The notes below the pieces were generated by a model, which had not been told where the DNA came from, searched no databases, and saw only the letters and a list, made by a program, of their open reading frames with translations. A DNA stretch of 34,764 nucleotides from Acidimicrobiia bacterium (GTDB taxonomy: Bacteria; Actinomycetota; Acidimicrobiia; Spongiisociales; ZC4RG35): positions 1 through 34,764 of the forward strand of contig WFOA01000078.1 of NCBI GenBank assembly GCA_015488325.1, given 5' to 3'. This document shows positions 11,492 through 15,983 of the stretch, in pieces. The translations under genes and the position numbers were made by a program. Each line of letters starts with the position of its first letter. The stretch's first letter is position 1.

Positions 11492-12271
11492 TCAGGTCAC
11501 CGAACGGAAGTCGGCGGGCCGCTTCTCCAAGAACGCCTTCATCCCTTCGAGGTGGGCGGGGGCTGCGCCCAGCTCCGCCTGGGCGAACCGCTCGGCGGCG
11601 AGGGCAGCGGTGAGGTCCGAGGCCGAAGCCTGGTGGAGGAGACGCCGGGTGGCGGCGTAGGCGGGTGGATGGCCGTTCGCCAGCTCCGAAGCCCATTCCA
11701 CCGCCTCGGCGACGACTCGGCCTGCCGGTACCACCCGGTGGGCCAGCCCCAGCTCGGCGGCTTCGGCGGCCCCGAGGCGGCGGTTCGTGAAGGTGAACTC
11801 GATCGCCCGGGACAGCCCGAGATGCCGGGGGAGGAACCACGTCGATCCTGTGTCGGGGACCAGGGCGAGGCCGATGAACGCGGGGAGGAAGAACGACTCG
11901 TCTGCCATCACCCGCAGGTCACATGCCAGGGCGATGCCCATCCCCGCCCCGGCCGCGACGCCGTTCACGGCGGCGATCGTCGGGACCTCCACGTCCACCA
12001 ACGCCTCCACGATCGGGTTGAAACGCCGGTCGATCACCGGGCCGAGGTCGGGTCCGCCGGCCTCGTACTCACCCATCAGGTCCGACAGGTCGGCGCCGGA
12101 GCAGAAGGCCTTCCCGGCACCGGTGATCACCGCCGCCCGGGCTTCGTCGGCTGCCCGTCCCAGCCCGGCGACGAGCTCGTCGCAGAGCTGTTGGGAGATG
12201 GCGTTGTACCGGTCGGGGCGGTCGAGGGTGAGGACGGCGACGTCGCCGTCGAGGCGGTAGGTCACGGCCAT
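11492..12271 (-). CDS. Enoyl-CoA hydratase/isomerase family protein
   Basis: A crotonase-fold enzyme of 259 residues acting on acyl-CoA double bonds in fatty-acid or related catabolism. Visible motifs are GAGKAFCSGADLSDL (CoA and oxyanion-hole region), VNGVAAGAGMGIALACDLRV (second oxyanion glycine) and FIGLALVPDTGSTWFLPRHL. The Asp in PDTGS recalls PaaG-type isomerases/hydratases, so the exact reaction is open. ATG 12271 has GAGGAG seven bases upstream. A minus-strand -10-like TAGGCT lies at 12304-12299. It is divergent from an acyl-CoA dehydrogenase, which suggests a shared beta-oxidation role. Confidence 0.9.
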   Translation of the reverse strand: MAVTYRLDGDVAVLTLDRPDRYNAISQQLCDELVAGLGRAADEARAAVITGAGKAFCSGADLSDLMGEYEAGGPDLGPVIDRRFNPIVEALVDVEVPTIAAVNGVAAGAGMGIALACDLRVMADESFFLPAFIGLALVPDTGSTWFLPRHLGLSRAIEFTFTNRRLGAAEAAELGLAHRVVPAGRVVAEAVEWASELANGHPPAYAATRRLLHQASASDLTAALAAERFAQAELGAAPAHLEGMKAFLEKRPADFRSVT

Positions 12272-12298
12272 CACGGAACTCCTCGTCTCGGGCTCATC

Positions 12299-13529: not shown

Positions 13530-13553
13530 CGGGTGACGACGCCGGGGGTCACG

Positions 13554-14744
13554 ATGGCCCGTGACCGCTGCTCGTTCTGTGACAAGCCCCGGGTCGAAGT
13601 CGACCATCTGGTCGGCGGACCCCGCGGGGTGTCGATCTGTGCGGAGTGTGTGGGGATCGCCTACGAGGTGGTGCGGGCGTCACGGAGGCCCGCGTCGACG
13701 GACCGGGTCCTCACCGGTATCGGGATGCTGGTCACCAACGACCGGCGGCGTCCGGGTCGGCTCGGCGTCGTGGAGGAGGCGGCGGTGGCGATCAGGGTGG
13801 GCAAGGTCACCTGGGTGGGGGAGGAACGTCGGATCCCCTCCCGGTACCGGGCGCTCCCCGAGGTGCCGTGTGGCGGCCGGATGGTGATCCCCGGGTTCGT
13901 GGATGCCGCCACCCATCTGACCGGCTCCGGGGTCGACGGCAGGCCCCAACCCGAGGTGGCGGCTGCGGAGACCACCGACCGTGCCGCCCGTTCCCTCGCC
14001 CGGGGCACCACGACCATCGACATCGCCGCCGGCGGCAGTGGGGATCCGATCACCGACACGTCGCTGCTGGCGGTGGCGAGGGTGGTGGGGGAGCGGATGC
14101 CCTGTCGGGTGGACGTCACCTGGCGGACGGCCTCAACGTGTGCGACCACCGCCGTGACGGCGGGGATGGTGGAGACCGCTGCCAGGCTCGCGTCCCAGGT
14201 GGAGATCCCGGCGCCGGTCCCGCCTGGCGTCCTGTCGACGATGCGGCGAGCCCGTCTGCGGATCAGGTTGGTGGAGCCGCCGCCGGGGTCGCTCTCGGAG
14301 GGCGTGGAGGTCGACGCCGTGGGCCGGCTCGCCGCGCCGAGCGAGGACGACCTGGCCGCCCTCGCCGGATCCGACGTCCCGGTGATCCTCACCGTCGCAG
14401 ACCTGCTGGCCGGACGCCCCTGGCCGGGTCGCCAGGTCCTCGACGCCGGCGTGGCGCTCGCCGTGGCGACCGGGTCGGATCCCGAAGGGACGGAGGTGGC
14501 AGGTCTGGGACTGGGGGTGGCGTTGGCGGTGGCCTTCGGGGGACTCACCGCCGAGGAGGCGTTGTGGGCCGTCACCAGGGGTGGGGCGTTGGCGTTGGGC
14601 GCTCCGGAGCTCGGATGGATCGGTCCCGGGGCGGCAGGTGACCTGGTCGTGGCCGACGCCGCCGAACCGGCGGATCTGGTCGGCCGGCCCGACGGGGACA
14701 CCGTCTTCCGGGTGGTGGCCGGCGGGGAGCTGATCCCCGTTTGA
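13554..14744 (+). CDS. ClpX-type zinc finger fused to a degenerate HutI-like amidohydrolase
   Basis: A 396-residue protein with an unusual architecture. Residues 6-32 form a four-cysteine zinc finger (CSFC, then ICAEC, with a GGP turn between) very like the N-terminal domain of ClpX, but no AAA+ domain follows. From about residue 50 the sequence follows imidazolonepropionase (HutI): LTGIGMLVTND, VVEEAAVAIRVGKVTWVG, MVIPGFVDAATHLTGSG, ARGTTTIDIA, LTAEEALWAVTRGGALALG and a GAAGDLVVADA tail. Key residues are lost: the metal-binding HTH is ATH, the KSGYG loop is absent, and TDFNPG is replaced by TGSDPEG. It therefore looks like a pseudoenzyme. ATG 13554 has a weak GGGGG upstream; GTG 13533 is an alternative. 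HU follows downstream on its own promoter. The function is unknown. Confidence 0.85.
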   Translation: MARDRCSFCDKPRVEVDHLVGGPRGVSICAECVGIAYEVVRASRRPASTDRVLTGIGMLVTNDRRRPGRLGVVEEAAVAIRVGKVTWVGEERRIPSRYRALPEVPCGGRMVIPGFVDAATHLTGSGVDGRPQPEVAAAETTDRAARSLARGTTTIDIAAGGSGDPITDTSLLAVARVVGERMPCRVDVTWRTASTCATTAVTAGMVETAARLASQVEIPAPVPPGVLSTMRRARLRIRLVEPPPGSLSEGVEVDAVGRLAAPSEDDLAALAGSDVPVILTVADLLAGRPWPGRQVLDAGVALAVATGSDPEGTEVAGLGLGVALAVAFGGLTAEEALWAVTRGGALALGAPELGWIGPGAAGDLVVADAAEPADLVGRPDGDTVFRVVAGGELIPV

Positions 14745-14768
14745 CACGGTTTTTCGGGTGTGTTCGGT

Positions 14769-14774
14769 TACCGT
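14769..14774 (+). promoter_or_regulatory. -10-like element TACCGT for the HU gene
   Basis: TACCGT predicts a start near 14781 and a leader of about 47 nt ending in GAGAGGGAGGA before ATG 14828. A perfect TTGACA at 14741-14746 overlaps the upstream stop codon, but it is 22 bp from this -10, longer than the usual 17-18 bp. Confidence 0.45.
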
Positions 14775-14827
14775 TGGATGCCGGATGGGCCCAGGGGGGA
14801 CGTCCGACACCCAGAGAGGGAGGACCG

Positions 14828-15121
14828 ATGAACAAGACCGAGATGGCGCAGAAGCTCGCCAAGAAGACGGACCTCACCGTCGCCAAGGCCTCCGAGGTGA
14901 TCGACGCGATCTTCTCGACGAAGCCGGGTGAGGGCATCATCGCCGTCGAGCTCGACGCCGGTCGCAAGGTGTCGATCGCCGGATTCGGCACGTTCGCCAC
15001 GAAGAGCCGCGCTGCTCGCAAGGGTCGGAACCCGGCGACCGGCGAGACGATCGACATCCCGGCCCGCAAGTACGCCAAGTTCACGCCGGCGAAGGGTCTG
15101 AGAGAACGCGTCGAGCAGTGA
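14828..15121 (+). CDS. hup: HU family nucleoid protein
   Basis: A histone-like DNA-bending protein of 97 residues that binds the chromosome as a dimer. The start MNKTEMAQKLAKKTDLTVAK and the DNA-arm region FGTFATKSRAARKGRNPATG followed by PARKYAKFTPAKGL are classic HU. It lacks the long Lys/Ala-rich tail of mycobacterial HupB, so it is the short form. ATG 14828 is preceded by GAGGGAGGA. A strong hairpin after the stop (15141-15170) makes it a single-gene unit. Confidence 0.96.
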   Translation: MNKTEMAQKLAKKTDLTVAKASEVIDAIFSTKPGEGIIAVELDAGRKVSIAGFGTFATKSRAARKGRNPATGETIDIPARKYAKFTPAKGLRERVEQ

Positions 15122-15140
15122 CATCGATCGAGTCGTGCAG

Positions 15141-15170
15141 AACGTGGGGCCCTTCGAAGGGTCCCACGTT
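15141..15170 (+). terminator. Terminator hairpin after HU
   Basis: AACGTGGG pairs with CCCACGTT, followed by one G-T wobble and a self-complementary CCCTTCGAAGGG apex. The hairpin begins 19 nt after the HU stop. A short CCGTTT follows but no real U tract. It directly precedes the promoter of the second GDPD gene. Confidence 0.8.
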
Positions 15171-15175
15171 CCGTT

Positions 15176-15181
15176 TACCCT
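15176..15181 (+). promoter_or_regulatory. -10-like element TACCCT for the second GDPD gene
   Basis: TACCCT ends eight bases before GTG 15189. There is no ribosome site, so a leaderless transcript starting at or next to the start codon is likely. Confidence 0.55.
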
Positions 15182-15188
15182 GGGCGGT

Positions 15189-15983
15189 GTGACCCGCCCG
15201 ATCTTCGACGAGCCGCCCCCGTACGCCATCGCCCACCGGGGGAGCCGGGTGCTGTGGCCCGAGAACACCCTCACCGCGTTCCGCGGCGCGGTGGAGCTGG
15301 GGTTCCGGTGGCTGGAGACGGACCTTCATCAGACCCGTGACGGGACGATCGTCTGCATCCACGACGACACCGTCGACCGCACCACGGACGGCACCGGCAG
15401 GGTTGCCGACTTGACCCTCGCCGAGGTGAAGGCCCTCGACGCCGGATACCGGTTCCGCCGGGACCACGACCATCCTTTCCGAGGTCGGGGGGTTCGGGTG
15501 CCCACCCTGGAGGAGGTGGTGTCGGAGTTCTCCGACGTGAAGCTCGTCGTCGACCTGAAACAGGACGGGATGGAGCGGGGTCTCGCCGACCTGATCACCC
15601 GGTTCGACCTGTGGGACCGGCTCATCGTGGGGAGTTTCAGCGGCGAGCGGTTGGCACGGTTCCGTCGGGAGACCGACGGCCGGGTGGCGACGTCGACCGG
15701 CCCGAAGGAGACGTTCCGGGTGTGGCTGCGTTCGTGGATCGGGACGCCGCTGCACGTCGCCGACGCCCTCCAGGTCCCCCGGTTCTATTGGGGTCTCCCG
15801 GTGGTGACGAAGCGGACCGTGGCGGCGGCGCATCGGGCGGGGATGCAGGTCCACGTATGGACGGTGAACGAACCCGACGTGATGGGCGAGCTGTTGGATT
15901 GGGGGGTGGACGGGCTCATCACCGATCGTCCGGACCTGTTGAAGACGGTGCTGGAAGGCCGGGGGATCTGGCAGGGCGCCTGA
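15189..15983 (+). CDS. Glycerophosphodiester phosphodiesterase family protein
   Basis: A second GDPD enzyme (264 residues), distinct from the one at 5669. The motifs are intact: AIAHRGSRVLWPENT (His-Arg and Glu-Asn), LETDLHQTRDG (metal Glu and Asp), VCIHDDTVDRTTDGTG (second His), VVDLKQD, and the C-terminal VWTVNEPDVMGELLDWGVDG. It is closer to the canonical GDPD consensus than the operon-linked copy (ETD versus ESD). No signal peptide is seen. I chose GTG 15189 because a -10 element lies eight bases upstream; an ATG at 15135 would put the terminator hairpin inside the gene. It is probably transcribed alone. Confidence 0.92.
   Translation: MTRPIFDEPPPYAIAHRGSRVLWPENTLTAFRGAVELGFRWLETDLHQTRDGTIVCIHDDTVDRTTDGTGRVADLTLAEVKALDAGYRFRRDHDHPFRGRGVRVPTLEEVVSEFSDVKLVVDLKQDGMERGLADLITRFDLWDRLIVGSFSGERLARFRRETDGRVATSTGPKETFRVWLRSWIGTPLHVADALQVPRFYWGLPVVTKRTVAAAHRAGMQVHVWTVNEPDVMGELLDWGVDGLITDRPDLLKTVLEGRGIWQGA

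Follow-up and report, generated by a model that had tools for sequence, protein, structure and literature searches.

The window is the whole stretch of DNA that was analysed (34,764 nucleotides, contig WFOA01000078.1); it belongs to a 2.9-Mb MAG made of 162 contigs. The gene under study encodes a protein of 396 aa that joins a ClpX-type zinc finger to a decayed HutI-like amidohydrolase. It starts with an ATG at 13554, 24 bases past the stop codon of the acyl-CoA dehydrogenase gene that precedes it; a GTG further upstream, at 13533, is a possible alternative start. Nothing close to the gene was found in the promoter scan. The features used below are given with their coordinates in the window, their strand and, where applicable, the basis of the assignment.

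11492..12274, minus strand: enoyl-CoA hydratase, divergent neighbour conserved at the locus of the fusion in family f1.
13554..14744, plus strand: whole gene, ClpX-type zinc finger and decayed HutI-like amidohydrolase, 396 aa (ORF, Pfam, NCBIfam, model).
13566..13673, plus strand: ClpX-type C4 zinc finger, residues 5-40, Cys 6, 9, 29 and 32 (PF06689, model match to ClpX ZBD structures).
13698..13931, plus strand: beta-sandwich of the HutI fold and start of the barrel, residues 49-126 (model, alignment).
13908..13916, plus strand: former HxH metal motif, now ATH, residues 119-121 (alignment).
13931..13932, plus strand: site of a 30-residue deletion, after residue 126 (alignment to complete finger-HutIs).
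13932..14741, plus strand: TIM-barrel and C-terminal part of the HutI fold, residues 127-396 (overlay on 2bb0).
14469..14489, plus strand: former TDCNPG metal/substrate motif, now TGSDPEG, residues 306-312 (alignment).
14828..15121, plus strand: HU-type DNA-binding protein, also found beside the fusion in most f1 genera.
15135..15983, plus strand: glycerophosphodiester phosphodiesterase (GDPD), neighbour conserved in f1, f3 and f6.

Finger-HutI: protein carrying both the finger and the HutI-like part. Families f1, f3, f5 and f6 belong to one order of Acidimicrobiia. At 14742-14827, ahead of the HU gene, the stop region of the fusion is overlapped by a TTGACA, which was not called by the consensus scan. 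Going by this motif, the HU gene may have its own promoter.

Domains, fold and catalytic site

The zf-C4_ClpX domain (PF06689) is matched by residues 5-40 with 48.4 bits (cut-off, 27), and its four zinc cysteines are present. The protein is also matched by Amidohydro_3 (PF07969; 44.6 bits, cut-off 29.7) and Amidohydro_1 (PF01979; 36.1 bits, cut-off 25), and no Pfam match to an AAA+ unfoldase module is found in it. The score obtained with the hutI model of NCBIfam (TIGR01224), 91.4 bits, is far under the cut-off of 298. In the AlphaFold2 model (pLDDT 93.1, pTM 0.86), residues 49-396 are superimposed on the HutI of Bacillus subtilis (2bb0) with Z 42.6 and an rmsd of 2.1 over 345 residues. The finger modelled alone matches the crystals of the ClpX ZBD (2ds5-2ds8, including the ZBD-XB complex) with a probability of 1.00, an rmsd of 0.7-1.0 and 45% identity. 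A ClpX-type finger, a remainder that follows imidazolonepropionase and the lack of an AAA+ domain had been proposed by the sequence-only reading; all three are upheld by these matches. The true ClpX of the genome is encoded separately (contig C18), and an intact finger-less HutI adjoins HutU on contig C86.

The catalytic site was aligned to this intact HutI and to complete finger-HutI orthologues. ATH is found for HTH, KSGYG is replaced, and TGSDPEG is found for TDCNPG (TDxNPG), as had been noticed from the letters. At HxH, H249 and D324 (B. subtilis numbering), the protein has A, H, V and G; one of the four metal ligands thus remains. The second-shell histidine is gone as well. The 30-residue deletion takes out the substrate residues aligned with R89 and Y102 of B. 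subtilis, and three shorter segments are also deleted. The metal histidines and substrate residues are intact in all 39 sampled finger-less HutIs. Judged from its residues, the protein is a HutI fold without its active site, from which imidazolonepropionase activity appears to have been lost.

Distribution, grades and history of the fusion

The fusion is carried by 40 genomes (finger, HutI and model searches added up) of families f1, f3, f5 and f6, among the 138 searchable genomes of the order. Outside the order, none of the matches listed for a class sample of 395 genomes and a phylum sample of 396 genomes spanned both the finger and HutI; rarer cases may exist there. In a scan of genome contigs with the back-translated protein, the sole match was the congener, a MAG (G001) whose protein is 76% identical. 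An assembly join, against which the sequence-only reading had cautioned, is rejected because of these 40 genomes of four families and of the congener protein; the fusion is conserved in related genomes. Grouping of all finger-HutIs as a single clade is not rejected (p-AU 0.56, with a slightly higher likelihood), so that a single fusion event is plausible.

Residue-by-residue scoring of 33 finger-HutIs at 13 positions distinguishes three grades. Complete: all 13 positions are kept by eight proteins, from the f1 genera g4 and g15 and from f3. Metal-only: the proteins of f5 genus g22 and of f6 members keep HxH, H249, H272 and D324 and have lost most substrate residues. Dead: the metal site is wholly or partly lost in eight genera, seven of f1 (including that of the window) and one of f5. 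The other seven of the 40 fusions, all from f6, were graded as altered from their hutI scores alone (210-247 bits, under the cut-off). The site is thus altered in 32 of the 40 genomes, window included. The dead proteins cluster in the tree (95/89), several of them on long branches, and their genera differ from one another in the residues found at the former metal-site places. The metal-only proteins of g22 and f6 (L024-L029, L031, L062 and L137) may be enzymes with a new substrate.

The dead fusion described by the sequence-only reading is therefore characteristic of the clade of the window and not of the layout as a whole, which in eight orthologues goes with every checked catalytic residue. 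Complete metal sites in close homologues had been named by the sequence-only reading as a refutation. They are absent from the congener and from the dead clade and present in sister genera and families, at 37-40% identity. This distribution bears on the history of the pseudoenzyme and does not refute it.

The fusion occupies one shared locus in f1, f3 and f6, where it adjoins GDPD and, in most of f1, also HU and the divergent enoyl-CoA hydratase gene. In G025 and G035, HutH and HutU are encoded at this locus and the complete finger-HutI lies downstream of HutU. HutU is present in all eight genomes with a complete fusion, and the finger-HutI is their sole HutI. Among the 32 altered genomes, 23 encode a second, finger-less HutI and HutU (the second HutI of G050 is a fragment at a contig end), and eight have neither HutU nor any other HutI; these 31 are counted in favour of the pseudoenzyme history. 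The remaining one is the congener (a fragmented MAG), where HutU is present and a second HutI was not found; it is counted against this explanation. The second HutIs are spread over several distinct branches of the tree. On the simplest reading, the fused HutI formerly served as the working hut-operon enzyme and was relieved when another HutI arrived or when the pathway was lost, an origin that the sequence-only reading had not foreseen. The association of catalytic loss with a second HutI amounts to one to two independent contrasts, too few for significance, in a tree whose root is not fixed.

In one branch of second HutIs (L124 in G003, L125 in G016, L126 in G030 and L134 in G038), the metal-ligand Asp is replaced by Asn, TDCNPG being changed to SNCNPG or TNCNPG. 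Their other checked residues are intact; they are finger-less and found in genomes with HutU.

Selection and conserved residues

dN/dS values are simple Nei-Gojobori estimates, with some dS near saturation. Between the window and its congener, dN/dS is 0.18 overall and 0.06 in the finger (neighbour genes: 0.03-0.18). It is 0.07-0.14 within genus g10, where the finger is nearly unchanged, and 0.12 within g3. By part of the protein, the values are 0.00-0.11 for the finger and 0.08-0.27 for barrel segments. With 76% identity to the congener, against 84-98% for its neighbours, the protein evolves faster than they do.

The finger is the most conserved part: the four cysteines, the phenylalanine of CSFC and a central glycine are kept in all 31 distinct fingers of the family. 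D63, G71, R81, W87, P95 and C106, in the beta-sandwich, are common to the dead and complete finger-HutIs that were compared and variable in finger-less ones, which suggests, from the alignment, that the finger and the beta-sandwich form one functional unit. A function limited to the finger is unlikely because the barrel is also under purifying selection. The protein is best read as a retained pseudoenzyme.

Proposed role and its alternatives

Adaptors and substrates dock on the finger of ClpX, which is dimeric. In Escherichia coli, F16 and I46 belong to the hydrophobic pocket used by trigger factor and are required for its effect; the same region also binds SspB, RssB and lambda-O (PMC7804408). 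The isolated ZBD, supplied in trans, inhibits adaptor-dependent (RssB-dependent) turnover by ClpXP (PMC7226468); a finger borne by another protein could thus be a decoy or a second platform. The equivalent of F16 is F in 31/31 family fingers and that of I46 is V, I, L or M in 28/31; the former is one of the CSFC residues, and its conservation may have a structural reason. Compared with ClpX fingers, those of the family have one residue more, and neither the VYIC tyrosine nor the fifth ClpX cysteine is present in them, so that docking may differ. The extra residue and the other differences are common to all family fingers, which makes a recent copy of the finger of the genome's own clpX unlikely.

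The preferred reading, given a rough probability of 0.45, is that of a retained pseudoenzyme that would work by binding through its ClpX-like finger and would compete with or feed ClpXP. The ancestor would have been a working imidazolonepropionase with an N-terminal ClpX-type finger, encoded in a hut operon placed between the enoyl-CoA hydratase gene and the HU and GDPD genes. In the lineage of the window, the enzymatic job falls to a finger-less HutI beside HutU, and the old locus no longer holds hutH and hutU; the metal site and a segment of the substrate site have been lost from the fused HutI, which has stayed under selection. Its present work would be binding rather than catalysis. Through the retained hydrophobic residues, the finger might dock ClpX adaptors or substrates, or the N-domain of ClpX itself; this docking would compete with, or feed, ClpXP. 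The dead barrel would be a scaffold or a ligand-sensing body. The role of competitor or adaptor, also put forward by the sequence-only reading, is compatible with these findings and is an inference. A bolder version, in which capture of a ClpX docking finger by an enzyme was followed by loss of catalysis and by a new task as dedicated ClpXP regulator (decoy or delivery platform for adaptors and substrates of ClpX) within one order, is tentative and rather improbable as a whole; in its terms, the complete, metal-only and dead stages would survive side by side.

A sensor or scaffold role without ClpX is a serious rival, though unlikely in its full form: the finger would be a mere dimerisation or stability module, and the decayed barrel would sense a metabolite or a protein. 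The barrel is indeed nearly as constrained as the rest (dN/dS 0.08-0.27), family-specific conserved residues occur in the beta-sandwich as well as in the finger, and elsewhere in the phylum ClpX-type fingers accompany HTH or Clp_N domains in unrelated proteins. Such a role fits less well with the finger being more conserved than any other part and having retained counterparts of the ClpX docking residues. Quite unlikely is that the finger tags its own protein for regulated turnover by ClpXP through pairing with the ClpX N-domain, on a working HutI first and on a dead one now. ClpX fingers do dimerise (PMC7226468), and turnover of a catabolic enzyme would make sense for the complete hut-operon enzymes that bear the finger; the retention of a dead protein in genomes without HutU or another HutI is left unexplained, and mixed dimers are not assured with a finger consistently unlike those of ClpX.

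Conversion into an enzyme acting on another substrate without the standard metal site is very unlikely for the protein of the window. New substrates are suggested in g22 of f5 and in f6, where metal residues are kept and substrate residues lost, whereas the window protein combines the loss of three of four metal ligands and of the second-shell histidine with the 30-residue deletion, and the residues at the metal places differ among dead-clade genera. A decaying pseudogene without function is hardly credible and is rejected by dN/dS. The loss of catalytic residues and an evolution faster than that of the neighbours (76% vs 84-98%) would agree with decay; stop-free frames in eight genera, dN/dS of 0.07-0.18, an intact finger and a confidently predicted fold oppose it.

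Each half of the protein has known relatives. HutI (TIGR01224; 2bb0, 2gok): the likeness lies in the fold of residues 49-396 (Z 42.6) and in the descent from a hut-operon HutI; the window protein differs by its additional N-terminal finger and by the missing metal and substrate residues and 30-residue segment. ClpX ZBD (PF06689; 2ds5-2ds8, 1ovx): C4 finger fold, CSFC motif and hydrophobic pocket residues in common; the window protein has no AAA+ module and its finger is joined to an amidohydrolase. SspB, RssB and trigger factor: the likeness lies in the proposed action through the docking surface of the ClpX N-domain. These adaptors bind the ClpX finger by a tail or a domain, whereas the window protein bears the finger itself, as a putative decoy or second platform.

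ClpX-type fingers also occur outside ClpX with other partner domains: actinobacterial HTH or Clp_N fusions, cyanobacterial sigma factors and possibly an SHMT fusion. HutI was not seen as a partner outside the order. In the open-access literature, zf-C4_ClpX is named only for the cyanobacterial sigma factors (PMC11119718), and imidazolonepropionase, ClpX and zinc finger were not found together; no described system with this layout was found there, in agreement with the sequence-only reading. In three actinobacterial proteins (L153 in G007, L157 in G414 and L159 in G434), HTH-like helices and/or Clp_N domains accompany one or two ClpX-type fingers; these proteins are possible Clp-linked regulators. 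L160:234-1643 (G397) encodes a serine hydroxymethyltransferase of full length whose N-terminal C4 finger is weakly ClpX-like (16.9-20.9 bits, under the cut-off); it may parallel the finger-HutIs as a metabolic enzyme that bears a finger.

ClpX-type fingers outside ClpX were already known; their fusion to HutI, and the retention of the fused protein as a pseudoenzyme, came up in no paper of the open-access text searched. Finger-HutI genes of this order should not be called imidazolonepropionase by homology alone. If the binding role is true, the family shows how the capture of one docking domain can turn a metabolic enzyme into a regulator of ATP-dependent proteolysis. The steps are open to testing, since the orthologous gene survives in complete, partly altered and dead versions. 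Even without ClpX, the family is a clear natural series from enzyme to pseudoenzyme under selection.
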